Source: Gammaproteobacteria bacterium
GTDB taxonomy: Bacteria; Pseudomonadota; Gammaproteobacteria; SZUA-152
Direction: 5' to 3'
Length of the DNA: 40,440 nucleotides
Assembly (NCBI GenBank): GCA_024276955.1
Contig: JAJRWE010000209.1
Coordinates: 1-40,440 of the forward strand
Made by a program: the position numbers and the translations under genes. This document shows positions 14,534 to 40,440 of the stretch, in pieces (the stretch's first letter is position 1; the number at the start of each line of letters is the position of its first letter). The notes under the pieces are model-generated. The model saw only the letters and a list, made by a program, of their open reading frames with translations, had not been told where the DNA came from and searched no databases.

Positions 14534-14704
14534 GTAGGAGCAGGCCATGCCTGCGACAGGTGGTTGGAAAACAATAAATTTGTGGGAGCGGCTTCAGCCG
14601 CGAAGAAGACAGGCTTGATTCGCGGCTGAAGCCGCTCCCACAATGTCCAGATCCACGACCTCTGTGGTGAAAGGCAAGGCTATCGCGGGCATGGCCCGCT
14701 CCTA
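14534..14704. repeat. Composite REP/BIME-type palindromic element, copy 1
   Basis: Four REP-like units are nested. The inner pair (14581-14604 and 14619-14642) is a perfect 24-base inverted repeat (TGTGGGAGCGGCTTCAGCCG and four further bases) with a 14-base loop. The outer units are GTAGGAGCAGGCCATGCCTG (from 14534) and TCGCGGGCATGGCCCGCTCC (from 14683). The same four-unit layout recurs at 27421-27598. The element fills most of the 301-base gap 14492-14792; nothing else is evident there. Confidence 0.9.
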
Positions 14705-25137: not shown

Positions 25138-26331
25138 ATGCCGACACTGAAAAATTCGACACTACCCGCTTGGTTCAACACCTTCGGCGCACCGGCGGCA
25201 GGTTTGATGAGACGACTTTCACTGGGCCGCAAGCTGGCGCTGCTTGGACTCAGCGGCAGCCTGCCTATCGCCCTGCTCGGCCTCACCCTCGGTAGCGGGG
25301 CCAGCCAATCCCTGCCCCTGCTGGGCGGGCTCACCGCCCTCAACCTCTATCTGTTACTGGGCCACTATCTGGCCAACCGGCAGTGGCAGGCGGCCTTGGT
25401 GCAGGGCCTGCCGGTATCCAAAAACCACAGCGAATATGCCCCCCTTCGACAATACCTGAGACAGAGCACCCGGGAGAACATACGCATCCTCGAGCGTGCC
25501 CGCACCGCAGCCGACGAGGTCAACGGTGCCGCACGCGAACAGAGTGACCGTGCTGAAACCAGCTCTGTGGGCGCCATGAGACACAGCATGGCGGTCAACG
25601 CCATTGCCTCGGCCATCGAGCAGATGGCCGCCAGTGTTCGCGATATCGACGCCCAGGCACGTGAGACCCGCGCAGCCTCGGAGCAGGCCAGCGGCCAGGC
25701 CAGCGAGGGCGAGCAGATCGTGCAGCAGGCGGTGGACGAGATCCGCAGCGTTGCCGATTCGGTGCAGGAATCGGCGGGCCAGATCGGCGCCCTCGGTCAA
25801 CGCTCAGAACAGGTCGGCTCGATCATCGGCGTCATCGAATCCATTTCCGAACAGACCAACCTGCTGGCCCTGAATGCCGCCATCGAGGCCGCCCGCGCGG
25901 GCGAACAGGGACGCGGTTTTGCCGTGGTGGCCGACGAGGTGCGCACCCTGGCCGGCCGCACCCACGATGCCGCCACCGAGGTGACGAAGCAGATCCAGAT
26001 GATCCAGTCCGACATCCAGGGTACGGTGAAGTGCATGGGCACGGTAAGCGACTCGGTGGAGCACGGCGTCACCCTGTCGCAGCGTGCCGGCGAGGCCCTG
26101 GCCAAAATCCGCCAGGGCACCGCACAGGCGGCGGAGCGGATTACCGAGATCAGCGGCGCCATCAGCCAGCAGGGTAGCGCCAGTGAAAATATCGCCCGGC
26201 ACATCGAAGATATCCGCCAGATGGCCAGCAGCGAAGGCGAAAACATCGCCAATGTCAGCACCACCTCGCAATACCTGCTGCAGCTGGCCGAGCGCATGCA
26301 TCACGTATTACAAGTGGAGACCAAGCAATGA
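25138..26331 (+). CDS. Methyl-accepting chemotaxis protein without an evident sensory domain
   Basis: This 397-residue protein has two closely spaced membrane segments (residues about 33-51 and 59-77) with only a few residues between them and no HAMP domain recognised. A coiled-coil cytoplasmic domain follows with the chemoreceptor hairpin tip [20 protein letters not shown] (from residue 238) and [18 protein letters not shown], which binds CheA and CheW. No CheR-tether pentapeptide is seen at the end. The frame is open far upstream, but ATG 25138 gives a sensible membrane protein; its ribosome-binding site is weak. The stop overlaps the start of the next gene as ATGA, implying joint production with the NIT-like protein. 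Confidence 0.85.
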
Positions 26332-27269
26332 TTCCCTTGTTGCTGCTGCCCGCGGGCATACTGGCCGTCGGCGGCTACCTGTTCCAACACCTGCGCGGCC
26401 AGCGATGCCGACAGGCCCGCCAGCGCCTTGCCGCCCTGGAGGAGATCCGCGGTCTGCGCCAGCTGCTGGAGAAGATCCCCCAACACCGGGGCATGGCCAA
26501 TGCCTTTCTGCAGGGCGATGCCAGTTTCGGCGCCAAACTGCAGACCCAGCAACAGCACATCGACGCCGACGCACGTATTCTCACCCGACTGGCCGGACAG
26601 ACCTCTTGCCGGGTGGTCAGCGAACGCATCCAGCGCATCGAGGCGCAGTGGTCAACCATCAAGCAGGAGCTGCAACGCCTCAGCTCCACCCGCAGCTTCG
26701 ACCTGCACAGCGAGCTGGTCGGCGAAATCCTCTATCTCATCAACGACCTGGGCGAGAAACAGGGCCTGCTGGACGAAGACAGCGGGTTCACCCAGCTGGC
26801 CAACGCCGCTATCAACCTGGTGCCCCTGGTCACCGAGACCCAGGGCCAGGCGCGCGGCATGGCCACGGGTGCCGCAGCACAGCAGGAATGTGGTATTCCA
26901 GAGCAGGTGAAGCTGCGCTATCTGCTGGCACGCACACGCAGTGCCATCGGCATGGCCAAGGGTGAGCTGCAGGGCAACGCAGAGGCGCGGGGACTAAACG
27001 ACAGCCTGGCGACCACGGAGGATTTTCTGCAGTTGCTGGAGACGCGGATACTGGAAACGCCGCGCATCGACATTCCGCCCGGCGAGGTGTTTGCCGCCGG
27101 CACCCAGGCCATCGGCCGGAGCTTCGTCTTGCTGGATCAGCTCATCGACGCCCTGCGGCAGCAGCTGGAGGTCAAAGCCAAGCGTTGCGGACGTCAGTGG
27201 CGACTGTCGCAAGTAACCGCCACGACCCTGCTGGCACCGGCGGCCTGGCTGGTGCAGCTGGCGGTGTGA
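26328..27269 (+). CDS. Membrane-anchored NIT-like sensor protein
   Basis: This 313-residue protein has one N-terminal membrane segment ([19 protein letters not shown]). A long helical region follows and begins with [20 protein letters not shown], resembling the E/H-RG-x-x-x-x-x-L start of nitrate/nitrite-sensing NIT domains. A second similar half starts at [19 protein letters not shown]. The C-terminus is hydrophobic ([15 protein letters not shown]). The gene overlaps the chemoreceptor gene by four bases. I infer that it provides the sensing module that the chemoreceptor lacks. Ligand unknown; the NIT assignment is moderate. Confidence 0.75.
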
Positions 27270-27404: not shown

Positions 27405-27420
27405 CTCAGCCAGCCTCGCC

Positions 27421-27598
27421 GTAGGAGCGGGCCATGCCCGCGATATTTTCCTGATGGCAAATGCTGGTGTTATGTGGGAGCGGCTTCAGCCGCGAATACT
27501 GGCTAGTTTTATTCGCGGCTGAAGCCGCTCCCACAATGTCCAAAGCGACAAGCTCCGTGGCGAAGAAAAAAATCCTCGCGGGCATGGCCCGCTCCTAC
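27421..27598. repeat. Composite REP/BIME-type palindromic element, copy 2
   Basis: It has the same layout as at 14534-14704: outer units GTAGGAGCGGGCCATGCCCG (from 27421) and TCGCGGGCATGGCCCGCTCC (from 27576), and a perfect 24-base inner inverted repeat (27473-27496 and 27512-27535) with a 15-base loop. The right outer unit overlaps the stop codon of the minus-strand lipoprotein gene. Confidence 0.9.
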
Positions 27599-28599
27599 GG
27601 CGCGACCTCCGCATCCCGCGCGCAGCGAAAACCCACATCGGTATTTTTGCTGTCAGGCGCCGCAAAACCGCGCATGGCACTGCGGAAGAACTCCGACAGG
27701 GCGTAATGGCCCATACCCCCACCGCCGCCGCGAATCACGCGGTTCTTTTCACCAAAGGCCTCGGCGACGAAATAATCGGAACCCGGATAGGGCTTGTACC
27801 AGCCGTCCACCCACTCCCAGGCGTTGCCGGCCATGTCGTACACCCCATAAGGTGAACGATTGTTTTCGTAATAACCCACCGGGGCCATGCCCTCGCCCCA
27901 GTCCTCGTTATCTCCGGTGTTGGCCAGACCGGCATCCCAGTCATTACCCCAGGGAAATTCACGCCCATCGGTACCGCGCGCGGCCTTTTCCCATTCCGCC
28001 TCGCTGGGCAGGCGCTTGCCGGCCCAGTGGCAGTAGCGATTGGCCTCGAACCAGGTGACACCAGTGGTCGGCAGTGTGTCCTTGGCCTGCTGATCGGCCA
28101 GCATCAGGCGCAGCAATTCGTCACGCCCACTGCGACGGGTGTCGATGTCCAGCTTAAAATATTCCGTGGCGATCCAGCGCAGGGATTCCAGGTCCGAGGC
28201 ACGCAGACGGTCTTCACGCAGGTTGTAACCATTCTGTGACCACTCGAAGGGTTCCGGCATCTTGCGGGCCTGTACAAAGACCCGGTACTGGCGATTACTG
28301 ACTTCGTATTTGTCGATCCAGTAGGCCGGCAGTTCCACCGTGCGCTGCGGGTGTTCGTCGAGATACAGCGGCTTGACCAATCCATATTCGTCCTGCTTGC
28401 CGCTGTCGTCGGTCTTGTCGCTACCCATGATGAAGGGGCCGGCCGGGATCAGCACCATGTCGTCCGGCAACGCAGTCAATGGCTCGGCGGCGGATGGCGG
28501 GGTTCCCGGCTCGTTACAGGCACTCAGGCCCAGGCCGGCAACCAGCAGGAACAGGACACCGCAAATGCTGCCACGGGGGGAATTCTTCGATGAAAACAT
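27595..28599 (-). CDS. Lipoprotein with formylglycine-generating-enzyme (SUMF1) fold, catalytic cysteines absent
   Basis: This 334-residue protein has a lipoprotein signal (VAGLGLSACN, lipobox LSAC) and should be membrane-anchored in the periplasm or at the outer membrane. The FGE-sulfatase domain begins with MVLIPAGPFIMGSD and continues through DKYEVSNRQYRVF, GVTWFEANRYCHWAGKRLPS, EAEWEKAARG, YDMAGNAWEWV and NRVIRGGG, and ends GFRCAR. In true formylglycine enzymes the RGGSW region is followed by catalytic cysteines; here that part reads SEFFRSAMRGF without cysteine. It therefore is probably a structural or binding member of the fold. The ATG at 28599 is preferred to a TTG at 28611. The TAG stop is supplied by the adjoining REP unit. 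Confidence 0.9.
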   Translation of the reverse strand: MFSSKNSPRGSICGVLFLLVAGLGLSACNEPGTPPSAAEPLTALPDDMVLIPAGPFIMGSDKTDDSGKQDEYGLVKPLYLDEHPQRTVELPAYWIDKYEVSNRQYRVFVQARKMPEPFEWSQNGYNLREDRLRASDLESLRWIATEYFKLDIDTRRSGRDELLRLMLADQQAKDTLPTTGVTWFEANRYCHWAGKRLPSEAEWEKAARGTDGREFPWGNDWDAGLANTGDNEDWGEGMAPVGYYENNRSPYGVYDMAGNAWEWVDGWYKPYPGSDYFVAEAFGEKNRVIRGGGGGMGHYALSEFFRSAMRGFAAPDSKNTDVGFRCARDAEVAP

Positions 28600-29698: not shown

Positions 29699-29780
29699 TC
29701 CCACCACTCCACTCGGCGGTAATTTGGCATCGGTATTTTGTACCGGGAGTGGTATGTTGCCCTTATCTGGTCTAAGTCTC

Positions 29781-29786
29781 AGGAGG
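29781..29786 (+). promoter_or_regulatory. Ribosome-binding site that sets the glgP start
   Basis: AGGAGG lies 11 bases before the ATG at 29798. It supports this start over an upstream in-frame ATG at 29738. Confidence 0.8.
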
Positions 29787-29797
29787 GTTTCAGCGCC

Positions 29798-32353
29798 ATG
29801 CCGGGTACCCGTTTTTCACTCGAAGTCCAACCCCGCATCCCACCCAGGATCGGCCGTCTCGAAGAGCTGGCCAACAACCTGCTTTACACCTGGGACCGCA
29901 ATGTACGCTCGCTGTTTTACCGCCTCGACACGGGCCTGTGGGAACAGGTGGGCCACAGCCCCAAGCTGTTTCTGCGCCGTGTCGCCCAGCAGCGGCTGGA
30001 AAAGGCCGCCGAAGACCGCATCTTTCTCGATGACTATTACCGCGCACTGACGGCCTACGACAATTACCTGCAGCAACCCCCGGCCTCAGAGGCCAGCCTG
30101 CTCGACCCCAAACACGACCTGGTGGCCTATTTTTGCGCCGAATTCGGCCTGCACGAGAGCCTGCCCATCTATTCCGGTGGCCTCGGCATTCTCGCCGGCG
30201 ACCACTGCAAGGCCGCCAGCGACATGGGGGTGCCCTTCGTCGCCATCGGTCTGCTCTACCGGCAGGGCTATTTCCGCCAGACCATCGACAACCACGGTGA
30301 TCAGGGCGCCCACTACGCCACCACCGATTTCCGCGACCTGCCGTTGACCCCCGCCACCAATGCCGAGGGCCAGGAAATCCGCGTCAAGGTGCAGGCCAAC
30401 GCCCACGACATCCAGGTCAAGGTCTGGCAGGCCCAGGCCGGGCGTATCTGCCTGTACCTGCTGGATACGGATCTGCCGGAAAACAGAGAGCAGGATCGCT
30501 CCATCACCTATCGCCTCTACGGCGGCGATAAGAGCACCCGCATCCAGCAGGAGATCGTCCTCGGCATCGGCGGCGTGCGCGCCCTGCTCGCACTGGGCCT
30601 GAAGCCGAGCGTATGGCACATCAACGAGGGGCACTCCGCCTTTCAGATCCTCGAACGCTGCCGACAGTACACCGCGGCCGGCATGGACTGGGCGCAGGCC
30701 CTGGAGCAGGTGGCCGCCGGCACCGTGTTCACCACCCACACCCCGGTACCCGCGGGACACGACATCTTCGACCGTCACACCATTGAACACTACCTGGGCA
30801 GCTACATTCCACAGTTGGACATGGATACCGACACCTTCATGGCCCTGGGCGAGAGCGCCGACCACAACAAGGGCAATTTCAATATGACCTCGCTGGCGCT
30901 GCGCGGCTCACGCTTTCACAACGGCGTCTCGCGCATCCACGGCAAGTTCGCGGCGAAGATGGAGAGCTACATCTGGCCGCAGATCCCCACCGAGGAAAAC
31001 CCCATCGGCCACATCACCAACGGTGTGCACGTGCCGACCTTTCTCGCCCGCGAATGGGTCAACCTGCTCGACGTACGCTACCCGCAATGGCGCAACGAAC
31101 TCAACAACGCCGATTACTGGAAGATCATCGACGAGATTCCCGATCACCGTTACTGGAGCCTGCGCCAGTCGCTGAAAAGCGAGATGCTGGAAGGCGTGCA
31201 TCGCCGTGCCCTGCATCAGCACCACCGCAACGGCTGCAGCGAGGCACAAATCAAGCGTCTGCTGAAACACATCGAACCTACCGACACCGATACACTGATC
31301 ATGGGCTTTGCGCGCCGCTTCGCCACTTACAAGCGTGCCGCACTACTGTTCTCCGATCCACAGCGCCTGTCGCGCCTGCTCAACGATCCAGATCGGCCGG
31401 TGATCCTGATCTTTGCCGGCAAGGCCCATCCCAAGGATCAGCCGGGACAGGCGCTGATTCGCACCATTTATGAATTTTCCCGCCAACCCGAGTTTGAGGG
31501 TCGGGTGCTGCTGCTGGAGGGCTACGACATGTCGCTGGCGCGCAAGCTGGTGACCGGTGTCGACGTGTGGCTCAACACGCCGGAATACCCCATGGAGGCC
31601 AGCGGCACCTCGGGCGAAAAGGCGGGCATCAACGGCGCGATCAATCTCAGTGTGCTGGACGGCTGGTGGGGTGAGGGTTTTCGGGGCGACAACGGCTGGG
31701 GCATCACCCCGCACGGGCCGGAATTTGAACCCGCCTATCGCGACCAGGAAGAGGCCAAGGATCTGCTCGACATCATGGAAAAGGAGGTCATTCCGCTCTA
31801 CTACGACCACAATGGCCGCGGCTATTCAGAGGGCTGGGTACGCATGTCCAAGGCCTCCATGCGCACCACCATTCCGCACTTCAATGCCCAGCGCATGATG
31901 CGCGACTATGTGCGGCAGATGTATGGCCCGGCCGCCCGCCATCAGGCGCGCATGGCGGAAAGCGACTTTTCCGGCGCCACCGAACTTGCCCGCTGGAAGA
32001 CGCTGATTCGCCAAGCCTGGCCCGGCGTCAGCCTGCGTCAGCTCGAAGAGCCGGCCACACAGGTCAAGAGTGGTGAAAGTATCCCCCTGCGCATCGCCGC
32101 CCATCTCAACGGACTGCAGCCGGAAGATGTCATCGTGGAATGCCGGGTGGGAACCGAGGATCACAATGGCGATTTCACCATCCGGGAGAATTACGCCCTG
32201 AGCCCTGACGGCAAGACGAATGCCGGCGAGACCGTCTTCAAGCTGGACCTCTGCCCGGACCTGTCCGGTCTGCAGTATTACCAGCTGCGCATCCATCCCT
32301 TCCATCCGCTGCTGGCGCACCGCTTTGAAACGGGCCACATGATCTGGCTGTAG
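29798..32353 (+). CDS. glgP: Alpha-glucan (glycogen/maltodextrin) phosphorylase, GT35 with DUF3417 N-terminus
   Basis: This 851-residue cytoplasmic enzyme releases glucose-1-phosphate from the non-reducing ends of glycogen or maltodextrin using pyridoxal phosphate. The N-terminal DUF3417 region (PRIGRLEELANNLLYTWDRN) marks the second bacterial type of alpha-glucan phosphorylase. The core has YFCAEFGLHESLPIYSGGLG, GDHCKAASDMGVP and HINEGHSAF. The PLP region is EASGTSGEKAGINGAINLS, with the Schiff-base lysine at about residue 608. The C-terminal about 120 residues form a beta-rich appendix. The start at 29798 is fixed by a strong ribosome-binding site. In the glycogen region it provides the breakdown step. 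The TAG stop is followed at once by a REP fragment. Confidence 0.95.
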   Translation: MPGTRFSLEVQPRIPPRIGRLEELANNLLYTWDRNVRSLFYRLDTGLWEQVGHSPKLFLRRVAQQRLEKAAEDRIFLDDYYRALTAYDNYLQQPPASEASLLDPKHDLVAYFCAEFGLHESLPIYSGGLGILAGDHCKAASDMGVPFVAIGLLYRQGYFRQTIDNHGDQGAHYATTDFRDLPLTPATNAEGQEIRVKVQANAHDIQVKVWQAQAGRICLYLLDTDLPENREQDRSITYRLYGGDKSTRIQQEIVLGIGGVRALLALGLKPSVWHINEGHSAFQILERCRQYTAAGMDWAQALEQVAAGTVFTTHTPVPAGHDIFDRHTIEHYLGSYIPQLDMDTDTFMALGESADHNKGNFNMTSLALRGSRFHNGVSRIHGKFAAKMESYIWPQIPTEENPIGHITNGVHVPTFLAREWVNLLDVRYPQWRNELNNADYWKIIDEIPDHRYWSLRQSLKSEMLEGVHRRALHQHHRNGCSEAQIKRLLKHIEPTDTDTLIMGFARRFATYKRAALLFSDPQRLSRLLNDPDRPVILIFAGKAHPKDQPGQALIRTIYEFSRQPEFEGRVLLLEGYDMSLARKLVTGVDVWLNTPEYPMEASGTSGEKAGINGAINLSVLDGWWGEGFRGDNGWGITPHGPEFEPAYRDQEEAKDLLDIMEKEVIPLYYDHNGRGYSEGWVRMSKASMRTTIPHFNAQRMMRDYVRQMYGPAARHQARMAESDFSGATELARWKTLIRQAWPGVSLRQLEEPATQVKSGESIPLRIAAHLNGLQPEDVIVECRVGTEDHNGDFTIRENYALSPDGKTNAGETVFKLDLCPDLSGLQYYQLRIHPFHPLLAHRFETGHMIWL

Positions 32354-32441
32354 CGTTTCGAGCCGTAGGAGCGGACCCCCGGGCCGCGAAATAAACCACC
32401 CCACAGCAAGTTGACAGGGTATTGTGTTGTAGGTTGGTGGT

Positions 32442-32536
32442 GAGCTTGCGAACCCCAACATTGTTGATTTCGTTGGGGTTCCTGCGTCACCACCAACCTA
32501 CAAAACCCTCGTTATTTTGTTAACTTAATGGCATTG
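32442..32536. repeat. 95-base direct repeat, copy 1
   Basis: It begins GAGCTTGCGAACCCCAACAT and ends TTAACTTAATGGCATTG. It matches 32774-32868 with one mismatch (C or A in AAAACC[C/A]TCG). It contains the palindrome GAACCCCAAC ... GTTGGGGTTC. Confidence 0.92.
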
Positions 32537-32773
32537 CCTCCGTCCCTATTACCTGCCCTTTTCCCTAATTCATGGCTCGCTTTGTAATTTCCGACATTAA
32601 AATAGCGCGGTGATTCAAAGGGTTGTAGAAATATACGAGGTATATATGGGGACCCCCTCGGCATTAATAATATGGGGAAAAACTCGCTTCCCTGCCAGCA
32701 GCTAAAGGTGTAACTTATATTAAGTTATATAAAATCAATGGGCTACGGCACTAATTGTGGACAGTTGGTCAGC

Positions 32774-32868
32774 GAGCTTGCGAACCCCAACATTGTTGAT
32801 TTCGTTGGGGTTCCTGCGTCACCACCAACCTACAAAACCATCGTTATTTTGTTAACTTAATGGCATTG
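32774..32868. repeat. 95-base direct repeat, copy 2
   Basis: This is the second copy, 332 bases downstream of the first. The left outer palindrome arm present at copy 1 (TGTAGGTTGGTGG) is reduced here to TTGGTCAGC, so this copy is incomplete on its left side. Confidence 0.92.
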
Positions 32869-33036
32869 GGTAGCGTCCCTTTTTTTTACTTTTTTTAAGA
32901 TATCCACAAATCCTGTGCACAAACCACGCCGGGAACCGGCACGGGCCATGCCGTGGGCCGCATGACCACGCTTTGAGCACCCCGCACGTCCATGTGGTCT
33001 TTGGGAAATGATTACACTGACCGTTCTCTGCGCGGG

Positions 33037-33064
33037 TTGCCAATCATCACTATGATGCTATGAT
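33037..33064 (+). promoter_or_regulatory. Candidate sigma-70 promoter and operator of the toxin-antitoxin pair
   Basis: TTGCCA (33037-33042) and TATGAT (33059-33064) are spaced by 16 bases and lie 30 bases before the antitoxin ATG. The -10 region holds a short direct repeat (CTATGATG CTATGATT), a plausible site for autoregulation by the antitoxin. Confidence 0.5.
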
Positions 33065-33093
33065 TACGTCATATTGATCTATGGAGTTATGCA

Positions 33094-33519
33094 ATGGCTA
33101 CTGCTAAGAATGGGCTTTTTACATCGCTTGGAATACCCGCTGAGTCTCTCACCAATCAGGCCCAATTCATCCGCCTTGTCAGAGAAGGTATGCCCGGTGA
33201 GGTGGTTAAACGGGCAGCTCAGATGTTTGATAATCGCGACCTCCTTGTCCGCATTCTCGGCACCACATCGAGCAATCTTAGCCGCTATTACCGCGTCAAG
33301 AAAATGAGCCGCGAAAATAGCGAAGAAATACTGGACACCATTCGCCTATATGGCCAGGCGGCACAGGTCTTTGGCGATCTTGATAAAGCAATTGAGTGGA
33401 TAAAGACACCGGTCGCTGCTTTGGCCGATGAAAAACCCGAAGCCCTTTTTGACACTTTTGAAGGACGACATTGGGTGTCCCAGGTTTTGCGAAAAATCGA
33501 GTACGGTGAATTCGTTTAA
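33094..33519 (+). CDS. Xre/ParS-type antitoxin (DUF2384 / MbcA-ParS-Xre family)
   Basis: This 141-residue antitoxin has an N-terminal helix-turn-helix-like part (LLVRILGTTSSNLSRYYRVK) that binds its own promoter in related systems. The C-terminal toxin-binding domain has SEEILDTIRLYGQAAQVFGD, then KAIEWIKTPVAALADEKPE, then ALFDTFEGRHWVSQVLRKIE. This is the usual DUF2384 pattern with the conserved W, P and G residues. The ribosome-binding site is GGAG just upstream of ATG 33094. The stop overlaps the start of the toxin (TAATG), giving coupled translation. Confidence 0.93.
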   Translation: MATAKNGLFTSLGIPAESLTNQAQFIRLVREGMPGEVVKRAAQMFDNRDLLVRILGTTSSNLSRYYRVKKMSRENSEEILDTIRLYGQAAQVFGDLDKAIEWIKTPVAALADEKPEALFDTFEGRHWVSQVLRKIEYGEFV

Positions 33520-33995
33520 TGCGGTTATATCGCATCACCCTTAATTCCTATCTCAAGGATTACCGAGGATTAGGGGCTAGTTACAGCGATGGTGCAAGGT
33601 GGAACAGAGCAGGACAGCCCGTTCTGTACTTTGCGCTGTCGGCCTCGACTGCACTACTGGAAATGGCGAACTATATTCCCTCACCCCGCTTGGTGCCTGG
33701 TCAGTATCGCTTAGGGATTTACGGCATACCCGATACATCACCGATTCATACGCTACCAGAAAGCAAACTGCCCAAGGATTGGGCGGCATTCCCCTACCCC
33801 GCTTCAACACAAACCATCGGCAGCGATTGGCTTTCTGCCGGCCACGAGATGGGATTGCTCGTGCCCAGTTCAGCCGTTCCCGAGGGGCTCGAAAAAATCA
33901 TGGTGATCAATCCACAACATCGCGGCTGCGCAACAATTCGACTGATCAAGTCCACAAAAGATTTGTACAACAAACGCACATTTTCTGGTGTATAA
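33519..33995 (+). CDS. RES domain toxin
   Basis: This 158-residue toxin is of the RES family. Characterised members degrade NAD+ or ADP-ribosylate a target in the cytoplasm. The features are the N-terminal YRI with the conserved arginine, the GARWNRAGQPVLYFALSAST segment and ALLEMANYI with the conserved glutamate. The later GSDWLSAGHEMGLLVPSSAV carries the conserved serine and is followed by the INPQHRG element. It shares one base with the antitoxin stop. The antitoxin-then-toxin order is that of known RES/Xre loci. Confidence 0.93.
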   Translation: MRLYRITLNSYLKDYRGLGASYSDGARWNRAGQPVLYFALSASTALLEMANYIPSPRLVPGQYRLGIYGIPDTSPIHTLPESKLPKDWAAFPYPASTQTIGSDWLSAGHEMGLLVPSSAVPEGLEKIMVINPQHRGCATIRLIKSTKDLYNKRTFSGV

Positions 33996-34011
33996 CACAT
34001 CGATGGGGTCA

Positions 34012-34391
34012 GACTCGATCGATATCACTGGTTATCTTCCGACCGCCTGTTAAGCAGACCTCCCCAGATAAGAGCATGCACTGTCCCTGCACTGCTACAT
34101 CAATTACGGTGGCCGTTAGATCACATGGCTTCGATGTCTTGCACCCAAAGCAGTTCGTGGGGCAGGCTCTGCCATCTCGCCTCCAGCCTACGCCTCATAT
34201 GATGTTCTTGTTCATCAGCTCGCAGTTCCGCCTAAAGCGCCTACTGTTGGTGCGTCCGGCTTCCTTCAGACCACCCCTCACGGTTGGCCCTTACCATTCG
34301 CTAGTAGTTGGCATCTAATATCGATAGAGGATAGTGATCTTCCTACAGAGGACTTTCACCTCATTAGTTCATGCCCATACTGGGCGTACAC
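34012..34391 (-). mobile_element. Truncated group II intron, 5' portion (domain I)
   Basis: Read on the minus strand from 34391, the sequence starts GTGTACGCCCAGTATGGGC, the GUGYG-type 5' end of bacterial group II introns with the first stem. It continues with AACTAATGAGGTGAAAGTCC, where GGTGAAAGTCC (34350-34360) is a conserved domain I element. Further along lie GGTAAGGGCCAACCGTGAGG and CTTATCTGGGGAGGTCTGC (34054-34072), which resemble the segments ahead of the reverse transcriptase gene in known introns. Neither the reverse transcriptase gene nor domain V is present. The 3' limit near 34012 is approximate. It covers most of the 531-base gap 33996-34526; the rest (34392-34526) holds only a REP fragment (GGCCGCTCCTAC at about 34498). 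Confidence 0.75.
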
Positions 34392-34526
34392 AAATAGCTC
34401 CAGCGGACAATTTAAAGCGTCAGGAAGCCCCCACTGAATATTTTTCTCTGGGCTCCTCTGTGTCATCCATAGCGAGACATGCATGCTCGGCCTGAGGGGC
34501 CGCTCCTACAAAAGCCGGGGAAGCCG

Positions 34527-36014
34527 TTAGCCCTGAGGGGCTCGCCCGTACAGGCGCACCAGGTGAGCTACGCGACCGTCCAGGTCCGCCGGCACCTGAT
34601 CCCAGCTGAAACGCCAGCGCCAGTTGCCTTCCTGCTCGCCGGGCACGTTCATGCGCGCCTCGCTGCCGAGACCGAGAAAGTCCTGCAGCGGCACCACCGC
34701 CAGCCGTGCAGTGGAGGCCATGGCGGCGCGGATCAGTCCCCACGGCAGGGAGGCGGCATTGCAGCCCAGGTAGTCACAAGTATAGTGCTTGCTGTCATCA
34801 CTGAGCTGCTGCGCCCAGCCCGGGGTGGTGTCGTTGTCGTGGGTACCGGTGTAGACCACGGCATTTTTGCGGTGATTGTGCGGCAGATAGGGGTTGCCGG
34901 GGCTGCCGTCGAAGGCGAACTGCAGGATCTTCATGCCGGGGAAGTCCCAGGATTCTCGCAGGGCTTCCACCTCCGGTGTGATCACGCCCAGGTCTTCGGC
35001 CACCACCGGCAGGTAGGGGCAGGCCGCCTGCAGGGCCTTGAACAGGGCATTGCCGGGGCCGGGCAGCCAGTGACCCTCAATGGCCGTCTCGGCATCGCCG
35101 GGGATGGACCAATAGGCCTCGAAGCCACGGAAGTGATCAATGCGCACCAAATCGAACAGCTCCAGCGCGGTACGCATGCGCTTGATCCACCACAAATAGC
35201 CATCCTCGGCCATGCGCTCCCAGCGATAGTGCGGATTGCCCCAGCGCTGCCCGGTGTCGGAGAAATAGTCCGGTGGCACACCGGCGATGGTGATGGGATG
35301 CCCATTGTCGTCGAGGTCGAAGTATTCGCGGTGCGCCCAGACTTCGGCGCTGTCGTGGGAGACGAAGATGGGCATGTCGCCAAACAGGTCAATGCCACGC
35401 GCATTGGCGTAGTGCTTCAATCCCAACCACTGACGGAAAAACACGAACTGTTCGAAGCGTACCTGCTCAATGCAGGGCTGCAGACGCTCACTGACCTCGG
35501 CCAGGGCCTGACTGTCGCGGTCGCGCAGGGCCTGCGGCCACTGGAACCAGGGTGCCCGCTGGAAATCATCGCGCAGTGCCTCGTAGGTGGCGTAATCATT
35601 CAGCCAGACGCGGTGACGCTCGCAGAAGTCGCCGTACTCCTGCTGATCATACTCACTGGCGCGCGCCTTGAATCCCTCGAAGGCGACATCCAGCCTGGCC
35701 TGCCGCAAGACGTGGGCAGGCAGGGCCTCATCGTCCAGCCAGCCCCACTCACGCAGCAGGTCAAGGCTGATGAGATTGGGATTGCCGGCATGCACCGAAG
35801 TGCTCATGTAGGGCGACAGATCATCCAGGGTCGGCCCCAGGGGCAGCACCTGCCAGACGCTGATCTGCGCCGCCTGCAGAAAGTCTACGAAACGGTAGGC
35901 CGAGGGACCCAGGGTGCCCAGCAGCTCGCGGCCGGCCTCGGAGGCCGTGGCGGGCAGCGAACTGGGATGTAACAGGATGCCGGCACGCCGGTGGGAAAGA
36001 ACGGGATGAGTCAC
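34527..36014 (-). CDS. malQ: 4-alpha-glucanotransferase (amylomaltase, GH77)
   Basis: This 495-residue cytoplasmic enzyme transfers maltodextrin segments between alpha-1,4-glucans. It has the GH77 barrel. The start RRAGILLHPSSLPAT and WQVLPLGPT are family landmarks, as is DLFGDMPIFVSHDSAEVWAH. The catalytic residues lie in VRIDHFRGFEAYW (nucleophile), VVAEDLGVITP (acid/base) and YTGTHDNDTTPGW (third aspartate). The start is GTG at 36014 with AGGAA upstream; no in-frame ATG fits. It follows the GH57 gene on the same strand by 28 bases and supplies or rearranges chains for the phosphorylase and branching enzyme. Confidence 0.96.
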   Translation of the reverse strand: MTHPVLSHRRAGILLHPSSLPATASEAGRELLGTLGPSAYRFVDFLQAAQISVWQVLPLGPTLDDLSPYMSTSVHAGNPNLISLDLLREWGWLDDEALPAHVLRQARLDVAFEGFKARASEYDQQEYGDFCERHRVWLNDYATYEALRDDFQRAPWFQWPQALRDRDSQALAEVSERLQPCIEQVRFEQFVFFRQWLGLKHYANARGIDLFGDMPIFVSHDSAEVWAHREYFDLDDNGHPITIAGVPPDYFSDTGQRWGNPHYRWERMAEDGYLWWIKRMRTALELFDLVRIDHFRGFEAYWSIPGDAETAIEGHWLPGPGNALFKALQAACPYLPVVAEDLGVITPEVEALRESWDFPGMKILQFAFDGSPGNPYLPHNHRKNAVVYTGTHDNDTTPGWAQQLSDDSKHYTCDYLGCNAASLPWGLIRAAMASTARLAVVPLQDFLGLGSEARMNVPGEQEGNWRWRFSWDQVPADLDGRVAHLVRLYGRAPQG

Positions 36015-36042
36015 ATGGGTTCCTGGTTAAAAATCTTGCAAG

Positions 36043-37767
36043 TCAGTGTTCGGAGCCCCGGCGCATGACACCACCGGTCTGGGGCTGCCCACCGCCGCGG
36101 GCAAACACATGCGACAGGTATTCCGGCAGTTCCTCGCCCAACAGAAAATAGAGGGCGGACAGCTGGCTGCGGAACAGGCGTTCAAAATCTCTCACCGCCT
36201 CGGCCGGGTTGTAGTCGCCAAACCACCAGAACCAGTCCGAGCCCTCGCAGATGGCCAGCTGACGTTCGGCGGCCTTGCGCTGCTCATCGTTGAGCCGCCC
36301 GCTGGCAATCACCTTATCGAAACAGTGTTTGGCATCGCCGAGCATGTCCCAGGCGCGGTTCTTGTCGGCATCGCCAATCCAGGTGGAGAAGGTGCCGTAC
36401 ACCCAGCTGCCGGCCACTAGGCGGGAAATGTTTGCTGTCGGCAGGTCGTCCTGCAGCATTTCCGCATAGGTGGTCAGTTTCAGGCGCGGATGATTGGCCA
36501 GTCCCCGGTAGAGGGCTTCAAGGAAGTAATAGCCGTTTTCCGGGTAGTACTCCCAGGCATTCTCGCCATCGAGGATAATGGACACCACCGCGCCCGGCCG
36601 ATCCTCACAGGCATCGGCGATATTGTTCAGATGCGCCAGCAGGTTGCCTACGGCATCATCGGCATGCCAATCGGAAAAGTTGAATCCGATCAGGTCCGAC
36701 AGGCCGTCATCACGGAAAAAACAGGCAACATCGTTGTCGGCCACCGTGTAAGCACGATGCAGGACATGGTTTTCATCCTCGGGTAGGTCGCTCTCGGCCT
36801 GCGCCAGGCTGTTGCGCAGCACGTTTTCACCGCTGGCGATCCAGCGGAAACCCGCTTCCTGGTAATAGGGTATGGACTCGGTGCTGACGCTGCCCTCGGC
36901 CGGCCAGCAGCCGGTGGGGCGGAAGCCGAAGTAATGCTCGAAGGTCTTGATGCCCTCGCGGATATGCCAGCGCACGCGCTCTTCGCCGCCGGGATACTTG
37001 CCCAGCAGGGGCAGTTGCACGTCCGGCATCGCCTCGCGGGCCGATTCCAGGTCCAGCAGCAGGGGCACGATGGGGTGGGCGTAGGGCGTGACCGACAGCT
37101 CCACCCGACCCTGCTCGGCGAGACGCCGGTAACGACCGATGACGCCGGAGAGTAATTCACCGATAATCTCCATCAACGCGTGTCGGTCACGCAGACTAAA
37201 ATCGCAACCCTTTTCGATCAGCATCTGTATGCGCTGATTTTCGCGCCGCACCGTTTCGCCCAACCAGGCGAGGTGGTACCACATCAGCAGGTCGATGAGA
37301 AATTGCTCGCTGACATAGATGCCGGATTCCGGGTGCTCGAGAAAACAGCGCGCCATGTCCGCCAGGCGACCGTAGGGGACATAACGACTGATCAGGGTCT
37401 TTTCATTGGCGCGCAGGCATTGGCCAAGCAGCTCCAGCCGCTCGCCGGCATCGGTGGGCAGCACCGGGTTGGCCAGCGCCGCCAGCAGGGGGTCACGGAT
37501 ACGCTGCCCGTCAGACAGAAAGCCCTCGACCTGGCGGGCATAGTCGTCCAACTGCTCTAGCAGCGTGGGGGCGAAATTGACCACCGCGCGCGCCTGCGGC
37601 TCGGCCTCGAGATGGGCCGCCATGTCGGTATAATCCTTGATCGCGTGCAGATAGGTCCAGGGGAGTTGATATTCACCGTTTGGACGGTCGCAATACTGCG
37701 GCTGGTGCATATGCCAGAACAGCACAACGTTCAGCGTTGAGGTTTCTGAGGGGGTTTCATCGGACAT
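36043..37767 (-). CDS. GH57 family glycoside hydrolase/glucanotransferase
   Basis: This 574-residue protein of family GH57 starts with a short tail and then [15 protein letters not shown], the conserved HxHQP motif. Other family motifs are PEGSVS-like [40 protein letters not shown] (catalytic aspartate region) and [17 protein letters not shown]. It continues with [20 protein letters not shown] and ends after the [12 protein letters not shown] element. Such enzymes act on alpha-1,4-glucans as amylases, glucanotransferases or branching enzymes; the exact activity here is not clear. The ATG at 37767 overlaps the glgC end by 11 bases, so translation is coupled. Confidence 0.92.
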
Positions 37768-39025
37768 AGTGTAGTTCCTGACCCAGCATTTCGGGCACAA
37801 CCAGCGTCACGCCATTGGGCGTGACGTGAAAACGTTTGGCATCTTCGGCCGAGTTTTCGCCAATCACGGTGCCTTCGGTAATCTTGCAGCCCTGGTCGAT
37901 AATAGCCTTTTTGATACAGCAATGACGACCAATCTCCACATCGGGCAGGATCACGCTGTCGTTGATCGTGCTGTAGGAATTGACCCGCACATTAGAGAAC
38001 AACAGTGAGTGACGCACCCGTGCACCCGACACCACGCAGCCGCCGGACACCATGGAATCCACCGCCATGCCACGGCGGTCTTCGTCGTCGAAGACAAACT
38101 TGGCCGGCGGCAGCTGGCCTTGATAGGTCCAGATCGGCCAGGCGTCATCATACAGATTGAGTTCGGGCGTAACACCGATGAGTTCCAGGTTGGACTCCCA
38201 GTAGGCGTCCACCGTGCCCACATCGCGCCAGTAGCCCTGACTGCCGGTCTGCACGTCGCGGAAGGCATAGGCAAAGGTGCGGTAGCGCTCCATGGCCATT
38301 GGCACGATGTCGTGGCCAAAGTCGTGCGAGGAACCCGGGGTATCGGCGTCGCGCAGCAGCTGCTCGATGAGGAAATCGGTATTAAAGATGTAGATGCCCA
38401 TAGAGGCCAGCGCCACGTCGTCCTGGCCCGGCACCGGCTGCGGTGTTGAGGGTTTCTCGGTAAAGTCGGTCACGCGGCCATCTTCGGTCACCGACATCAC
38501 GCCAAAGCCCTTGGCCTCCTCCAGCGACACCTGCAGCGCGCCAACGGTGAGATCCGCGTTGTTTTCCACGTGCTGGGCCAGCATGGGGCCGTAGTCCATC
38601 TTGTAGACGTGGTCGCCACCGAGAATCAGCACGTACTTGGGGGTGTGATTGCGGATGATGTCGATATTCTGATAGATGGCATCAGCGGTGCCCACATACC
38701 AGTTTTCCTCGATGCGCTGCTGGGCCGGCAGCAGCTCCACGAACTCGCCAAACTCACCGCGCAGGAAACCCCAGCCCTGCTGCACATGCAGGATCAGTGA
38801 GTGGGCCTTGTACTGGGTCAGCACACCGACGCGGCGAATACCGGAATTGATGCAGTTGGACAAGGGGAAATCGATGATGCGGAACTTGCCACCAAAGGGA
38901 ATGGCGGGCTTGGCATGCCACTTGGTCAGTTGCTTGAGACGGGAACCCCGCCCACCGGCCATGATCAGGGCCAGGGTGTCGCGCGTAATCCGGCTGACAA
39001 ATCTCAACGATTGCTGTTCATTCAT
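37757..39025 (-). CDS. glgC: Glucose-1-phosphate adenylyltransferase
   Basis: This 422-residue cytoplasmic enzyme makes ADP-glucose from ATP and glucose-1-phosphate, the committed step of glycogen synthesis. [20 protein letters not shown] is the nucleotide-binding loop, and [20 protein letters not shown] carries catalytic and regulatory contacts. The rest includes [37 protein letters not shown] and [13 protein letters not shown] left-handed beta-helix region ([20 protein letters not shown]) forms the C-terminus. The ATG at 39025 has GGGAGAG upstream. It is divergent from glgB and forms an operon with the GH57 gene and malQ. Confidence 0.97.
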
Positions 39026-39204
39026 AAAACCACTCTCCCGATTAAACAAGCGTCATTACCCAACGGCATGGAAGCAAATAACCGACAATCACAAAACGTG
39101 ACGCCACTACCCCCTTGCCCTTATCATGTTAGCACCAACGGCCGTGTGTTCCGCAGGTATTTTTCGCGCAGACCGGCCACGCCCCCTATCAGGTATCGCA
39201 TCTC
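39026..39204. promoter_or_regulatory. Divergent control region between glgC and glgB
   Basis: Both genes start outward from this 179-base gap, so it must hold two promoters. I see no strong sigma-70 pair and no operator palindrome that I would name. Confidence 0.5.
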
Positions 39205-40440
39205 ATGAACGCTATTTCCGCATTTTCCCAGTCACAGATCAGCAAGATTCTCGAGGCCCGCCACCACGACCCCTTCGAAGTCCTCGGCCGCCACAAAATG
39301 GGCAAGGACGATGTGGTCTGCGTGTTTCAGCCACGGGCGAAAAAGGTCACGCTGGAGGGCGGGCAGGTCATGCAGCGCTATCACGAGACCGACCTGTTCC
39401 TGTGGCGCGGTGACGGCAAGACGCTGCCCTGGCCCTACACCATCACCTGGGTTGACGGCGCCGGCAACAGCCACCAGCGCATCGATCCCTACTGCTTCGG
39501 CCCGCAGCTCGGCGATTTTGACATGCACCTGTTCGCCGAGGGCACCCATCTGCACGCCTACCGTTTCCTCGGCGCCAACGCGAAGACCGTTGACGGCGTT
39601 GACGGTGTGGTCTTCGCCACCTGGGCGCCCAATGCCCATCGCATCAGCGTGGTGGGCGAATTCAACGACTGGGATGGCCGCTGTCACCCCATGCGGGTAC
39701 GCGGCGGCAGCGGCATCTGGGAACTGTTCCTGCCCGGCGTCGGTGAGGGGGCCCATTACAAGCTCGAGATCCGTGACCAACACGGCCATCTACACCTCAA
39801 GGCCGACCCCTATGGCCGCGCCTTCGAACTGCGCCCAAGCACCGCGAGCCGCATCACCGCCGACAGCCGTTACCGGTGGAACGACGCCAACTGGCAACAG
39901 CACCAGCAGCAGCTCGACTGGCTGCACGCGCCCCTGTCCGTCTATGAATTGCATCCCGGTTCCTGGCAGCGCGACGACAATGGCGATTTCCTCGACTACC
40001 GCACCCTGGCGCACCGCCTGGTCGGCCATGTCCGCCACCTGGGCTTCACCCACATCCAGCTGCTGCCCGTCACCGAGCATCCGCTGGATGCCTCCTGGGG
40101 CTACCAGACCACCGGCTACTTCGCCCCCACCAGCCGCTTCGGTTCGCCCGACGACTTCCGCTACTTCGTCGACCACTGCCATCAGCACGGCATCGGCGTA
40201 CTTATGGACTGGGTGCCGGCGCACTTCCCCAAGGACGCCCACGGCCTGGCGCGTTTCGACGGCAGTGCCCTCTACGAACACGAAGACCCGCGCAAGGGCG
40301 AGCACCAGGACTGGGGCACACTGATCTACAACTACGGCCGCAACGAAGTCAAAAGCTTCCTGCTCTCCAGCGCCATCTACTGGCTGGAGGAATTCCATAT
40401 CGACGGCCTGCGCGTGGACGCCGTGGCCTCCATGCTCTAC
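39205..40440 (+). CDS. glgB: 1,4-alpha-glucan branching enzyme, N-terminal part
   Basis: This cytoplasmic enzyme introduces alpha-1,6 branches into glycogen (GH13). The gene runs off the right edge after 412 codons. The N-terminal domain ([16 protein letters not shown]) is the usual GlgB N1 module, and a CBM48 domain follows with [20 protein letters not shown]. The catalytic barrel starts with [12 protein letters not shown] and includes [51 protein letters not shown] and finally [16 protein letters not shown], which carries the catalytic nucleophile aspartate. The general acid lies beyond the window. The ATG at 39205 gives the standard start. Confidence 0.97.

Follow-up and report, generated by a model that had tools for sequence, protein, structure and literature searches.

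Can a chemoreceptor be divided between two genes, one for its signalling part and one for a sensor of nitrate or nitrite? The question is raised by two overlapping genes in a gammaproteobacterial contig of the lineage SZUA-152 (JAJRWE010000209.1, assembly GCA_024276955.1), of which a stretch of 40,440 nucleotides, here called the window, was analysed. The first gene encodes a methyl-accepting chemotaxis protein (MCP) and the second a membrane-tethered protein assigned to the NIT sensor family. We propose, with a probability of roughly 0.7, that the two genes together make one bipartite chemoreceptor similar to CetA/CetB, in which a NIT domain takes the place of the PAS domain and senses internal nitrate or nitrite. 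The source genome comprises 3.16 Mb in 251 contigs and is 86.5% complete; according to their records, its close relatives are uncultured metagenome-assembled genomes of Gammaproteobacteria and Chromatiales.

Identity and conservation of the gene pair

An initial annotation, made from the sequence alone, described a chemoreceptor with two membrane helices and almost no periplasmic loop, whose gene overlaps the next one by ATGA. Both open reading frames (ORFs) and their overlap were recovered as described (Table 1). They lie in different frames and thus encode two polypeptides, not a fused one, and both are under purifying selection (dN/dS 0.19-0.43 across five congeneric species). The start of the MCP gene, the ATG at 25138, is kept across the genus. 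In the AlphaFold2 (AF2) model of the MCP, an amphipathic helix (residues 11-26) precedes two transmembrane helices, TM1 (29-50) and TM2 (58-89), which are joined by a loop of only seven residues and followed by a long helical region (98-396), so the described hairpin is reproduced. The overall shape of this model is unreliable because its predicted template modelling score (pTM) is only 0.44. Domain searches matched neither a HAMP nor a ligand-binding domain in the MCP. In the alignment, it lacks some HAMP residues that are present in its split counterparts at loci L070, L071 and L081, and the MCPs of L071 and L081 give weak HAMP matches.

The second protein (ORF2) had been likened to NIT domains. 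Searched alone against Pfam (including PF08376 at its cut-off), NCBIfam and the PDB sequences, ORF2 gave no match. Within its own genome, it aligns end to end with the NIT part of a 693-residue fused NIT-MCP (locus L002; 26% identity, E-value 5e-17), which carries an MCP domain and scores 51.6 bits for PF08376 against a cut-off of 24.9. Further, PF08376 is matched directly by 10 of 13 close relatives of ORF2. The AlphaFold model of ORF2, for which 13 homologues served as input, reached a mean predicted local distance difference test score (pLDDT) of 90.5 and a pTM of 0.84. When it was searched against 350,542 PDB chains, the only significant matches were two chains of NasR (4AKK; E-values 5e-5 and 9e-5, probability 1.00, template modelling scores 0.63-0.67), and the next match had an E-value of 0.27. 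Judged by this model, ORF2 is a protein of the NIT fold. The likeness to NIT domains therefore held in the fused paralogue, in the relatives and in the fold, and the lack of a NIT-like fold, named beforehand as counter-evidence, was not what the structural search returned. Domain search detected no PAS domain in the sensor protein. Spectrin and actinin matches of a profile (A3) were rejected as short coincidental hits of coiled coils.

The annotation had also made its case depend on conservation of the pair. An MCP gene followed directly by a NIT gene was found in 37 sampled genomes from 20 genera and 14 families, all within the class Gammaproteobacteria; five belong to the same genus, two more to the same family and 30 to 13 other families. 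In genome G009 the pair spans a contig end, and in G012, one of the exceptions, the gene upstream of the NIT gene lies off the contig. A search of genome contigs with ORF2 found only two congeners. Pairwise distances of the MCPs and NIT proteins are strongly correlated (Mantel r 0.94 for 18 pairs and 0.86 for 11 representatives, p 0.0001), and the same subgroups appear in both trees. This correlation indicates that the genes stayed coupled, not that the proteins touch. One congeneric locus (L037, G005:C66) holds the remnant of a broken pair, in which an MCP fragment with a stop is joined to a NIT fragment.

Predicted membrane topology and probable descent from fused receptors

Positive charges flanking a membrane helix tend to stay on the cytoplasmic side (the positive-inside rule). 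We counted lysines and arginines (K/R) in the 15 positions on either side of the first membrane helix. Their means before and after the helix were 0.5 and 4.0 in 22 standalone NIT proteins, compared with 3.3 and 2.0 in 38 fused NIT-MCPs. The excess lies after the helix in 20 of the 22 standalone proteins, and the two exceptions resemble truncated fused receptors; among the fused proteins it lies before the helix in 30 of 38 and after it in three. Split loci added later follow the same pattern. Two candidates, L075 and L078, were rejected as split proteins and left out, as they have the fused-type topology and resemble truncated or frameshifted one-piece receptors.

Given this charge distribution and the positive-inside rule, the split NIT domain is most likely on the cytoplasmic side, the reverse of the orientation in fused receptors, where the NIT domain sits between TM1 and TM2 and is accordingly predicted to be periplasmic. 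The charge pattern led us to reject a periplasmic location for the split domain. This placement goes beyond the initial annotation and is the chief refinement of it: the split NIT part is probably not a periplasmic sensor on a separate chain. The C-terminal membrane helix is missing from many distant homologues, some homologues have the N-terminal one alone, and a NIT copy in genome G557 has no membrane helix at all.

The suggested search for fused counterparts was productive, with one such receptor (L002) in the same genome. Moreover, a hidden Markov model (HMM) built on the leaders and first membrane helices of fused NIT-MCPs matched the N-terminus of the window MCP (E-value 5e-7) and eight other split MCPs. 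It matched none of the control MCPs from the same genome, and none of 200 shuffled sequences scored better than an E-value of 0.09. Because of this fused-type leader, the split MCP appears once to have had a NIT-type sensor in cis, and the window MCP lineage most likely descends from a fused receptor of the architecture TM-NIT-TM-HAMP-MCP. Split proteins cluster in the NIT tree (2 label changes, against 13.7 with shuffled labels; tree read as unrooted), except for the long-branch L121, which falls outside the cluster. Split MCPs likewise cluster in the tree of signalling domains (2 changes against 15.7). This clustering makes one or a few old fission events likelier and disfavours repeated independent fission. 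Taken further, a periplasmic sensor may have been cut from its receptor and re-anchored in the opposite orientation, so that it now reads cytoplasmic nitrate or nitrite in trans while the fused form, present in the same genome, reads the outside; we give this scenario about even chances.

Candidate ligand, proposed mechanism and alternatives

Across 41 split and fused homologues, residues H53, R54, G63, H127 and R176 are invariant and G173 is nearly so. A profile of these homologues aligned with the NasR chain (4AKK) places both motif arginines opposite those of NasR, although the match is weak (E-value 0.048). In NasR, predictions place E175 and R176 in the lining of the nitrate pocket (PMC7496416), and both nitrate arginines are retained while one motif glycine is replaced by glutamine (PMC8199190). 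Several distant pairs adjoin genes for an HPP membrane protein, NnrS, truncated globin and ferredoxin reductase, as well as a nitrate-reductase-like molybdopterin oxidoreductase with a BFD-type iron-sulfur domain. According to Maeda 2014, as cited in PMC7438415, HPP proteins of cyanobacteria and chloroplasts transport nitrite. The host genome itself encodes NapA (1509 bits), a cytochrome cd1 of the NirS type, HPP and an NnrS-like protein, the last named by its likeness to that of L071. Nitrate or nitrite is the presumed ligand of the split NIT domain.

In the mechanism that we propose, the MCP would be the transducer, a dimer that stands on a minimal membrane hairpin and governs CheA through the usual cytoplasmic coiled coil. 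The sensor would be the NIT protein, anchored in the inner membrane by its N-terminal helix (and, in the window's lineage, also by its C-terminal helix), with its domain on the cytoplasmic face beside the MCP neck, which is short and HAMP-reduced. Nitrate or nitrite, the likeliest anions, would bind between R54 of helix 1 and R176 of helix 5 and alter the packing of the NIT helices, and the MCP neck would receive this change through contact with the NIT domain. Such direct action is probable because the HAMP region of the MCP is shortened. The cell would thereby steer by its internal nitrate or nitrite level. Assembly of the two proteins, which the initial annotation had raised as a possibility, is supported only indirectly, by gene order, translational overlap and co-divergence.

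Several points weigh against such a bipartite nitrate receptor. Contact between NIT and MCP is presumed, the topology is a charge argument, and some co-divergence is to be expected of any adjacent genes that move as a unit. The homologous leader went undetected by the HMM in the pairs L070, L071, L076, L081 and L117-L121. No nitrate genes occur among the neighbours of the window's own pair, and one fused NIT receptor, PA4520, has been reported not to bind nitrate. Finally, nine genomes of genus g470 have a membrane NIT protein and the G557 genome a NIT copy with no adjacent MCP, and the NIT gene of genome G182 adjoins an ANTAR regulator. The g470 orphans (L154, L155, L157 and L159-L164) lie in two different gene contexts. 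At the G182 locus (L077:4134-5614), a membrane NIT gene overlaps the gene of the ANTAR regulator and adjoins that of an NMT1-type, nitrate-transport-like binding protein, an arrangement resembling a split NasR.

The result on PA4520 bears on the ligand step, and its authors propose that NIT domains form a superfamily in which several ligands are recognised. The complex may accordingly be real while its NIT protein senses something other than nitrate or nitrite, or is only a structural subunit. We regard this as rather unlikely, since the split proteins keep both arginines, and nitrate, nitrite or nitric oxide genes adjoin several pairs. By contrast, two fused NIT-MCPs of a different family within the class (L125 in G435 and L126 in G655) lack the helix-1 HRG motif. 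These may be of the PA4520 type, and the missing HRG may explain why PA4520 was found not to bind nitrate.

It is less probable still, and in our view improbable, that the NIT protein works separately as a nitrate or nitrite sensor facing the cytoplasm, serves another partner (an ANTAR regulator, a transporter or an enzyme) and is merely co-expressed with an MCP that senses, for example, membrane potential. The g470 orphans and the G182 locus, with its regulator and binding protein, fit such a role, as does the likewise orphan sensor CetB5 of Magnetospirillum (PMC12442639); they are countered by the constant order of the pair in 37 genomes, the correlated divergence of its members and the fused-type leader on the split MCP. 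An ordinary topology, with a periplasmic NIT domain and two proteins that rebuild the fused receptor in the membrane, would agree with the homology to receptors holding NIT between TM1 and TM2 and with the hydrophobic helices at both ends of the window's NIT protein, but the opposite charge patterns of split and fused proteins and the homologues without a C-terminal helix, or in G557 without any, make it very unlikely.

Table 1 Features of the MCP-NIT locus in the window
Feature	Position	Strand	Basis
Chemoreceptor (MCP), 397 aa, membrane hairpin of two helices	25138..26331	+	PF00015, E-value 1.2e-45; AF2 model
MCP leader and TM1, residues 18-50, homologous to leader/TM1 of fused NIT-MCPs	25189..25287	+	HMM of fused leaders
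MCP TM2, residues 58-89, leading into shortened HAMP region	25309..25404	+	AF2 model and alignment
MCP signalling domain, residues 180-362	25675..26223	+	PF00015
ATGA, 4-nt overlap of MCP stop with sensor start	26328..26331	+	Sequence; identical overlap in eight species
Membrane-tethered NIT sensor protein, 313 aa	26328..27269	+	Fused NIT-MCP match; PF08376 in relatives; NasR (4AKK) fold
NIT N-terminal membrane helix, about residues 1-22, predicted N-out	26328..26393	+	K/R: 0 before, 5 after helix
Arg-rich 12-residue stretch after membrane helix, positive-inside signal for a cytoplasmic NIT domain	26394..26429	+	Present in all 20 bona fide split homologues that have the helix; reversed in fused
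Helix-1 motif PQHRGM (R54), aligned with NasR QCER(G)	26478..26495	+	H53 and R54 invariant; 4AKK alignment
Helix-5 motif GQAR (R176), aligned with NasR GQER (E175/R176)	26844..26855	+	R176 invariant; 4AKK alignment
NIT C-terminal hydrophobic helix, about residues 289-311	27192..27260	+	Last helix of AF2 model, 251-312; alignments

Downstream of the pair, positions 27417-27602 contain nested perfect inverted repeats resembling repetitive extragenic palindromic (REP) elements, in which 27-nt arms 132 nt apart enclose 26-nt arms 11 nt apart; an exact copy of the inner element is also present at 14582-14641. Farther downstream (29738-40440) lies a run of genes that, on a reading of the sequence, resemble those of glycogen metabolism, with an 871-residue phosphorylase-like protein and GlgC-like and GlgB-like proteins.

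Relation to known receptors and biological meaning

CetA of Campylobacter jejuni consists of a membrane hairpin, a HAMP domain and a signalling domain; it is co-transcribed with CetB, whose level depends on CetA (PMC2628428). The genes of CetA2 and CetB2 of Magnetospirillum overlap, and their proteins interact (PMC12442639). The window's pair shares with both systems a hairpin MCP without a ligand-binding domain and a sensor in a separate neighbouring gene, which is co-transcribed or overlapping there and conserved and overlapping here. Its charge pattern is consistent with a sensor on the cytoplasmic side, where that of CetA/CetB lies. Unlike CetB, an FAD (flavin adenine dinucleotide)-binding PAS protein, its sensor is a NIT protein with a membrane anchor of its own; unlike in cetBA2, where cetB2 is named first, the MCP gene comes first; and unlike CetA, the MCP has no recognisable HAMP domain. 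As the sensor is a NIT protein and HAMP is missing, the pair is not a member of CetAB. Elsewhere in the same genome (L131:2085-4038, G000:C241), the gene of a 174-residue PAS protein overlaps that of a hairpin MCP with a CZB domain, in a CetB/CetA-like arrangement; an NnrS-like gene comes after it, and moaA-like and dimethyl sulfoxide-reductase-family genes come before it.

With fused NIT-MCPs such as L002, the pair has in common the sensor family, the signalling domain family and the homologous leader and TM1, whereas the fused receptors are single polypeptides with a complete HAMP domain and the NIT domain between TM1 and TM2. NasR, a NIT-ANTAR antiterminator, resembles the sensor of the pair in its NIT fold, in two arginines in QxxR/GxxR-type motifs and probably in cytoplasmic sensing, but as a soluble protein it targets RNA via ANTAR, while the window's NIT protein is tethered to the membrane and paired with an MCP. 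McpN, a PilJ-type receptor of Pseudomonas aeruginosa, has only possible nitrate chemoreception in common with the pair; it is a single chain with a different, periplasmic sensor domain (PMC6381276).

The evidence supports a bipartite chemoreceptor of an already known kind, in which the NIT sensor is what is new. We found no description of an MCP-NIT pair in the open-access literature, although it may be mentioned elsewhere. The two-protein chemoreceptors that we did find there have PAS-type redox sensors only, and the pair would extend this kind to an anion sensor. Explanations of nitrate and nitrite taxis have so far invoked energy taxis that depends on metabolism, or periplasmic sensors, McpN among them (PMC6381276); the pair is a candidate for taxis by direct intracellular sensing of these anions. 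The occurrence of fused and split NIT receptors in one genome provides a pair for comparison. If the proposed history is true, gene fission together with inversion of the membrane anchor would be a route by which receptors switch the compartment that they monitor.
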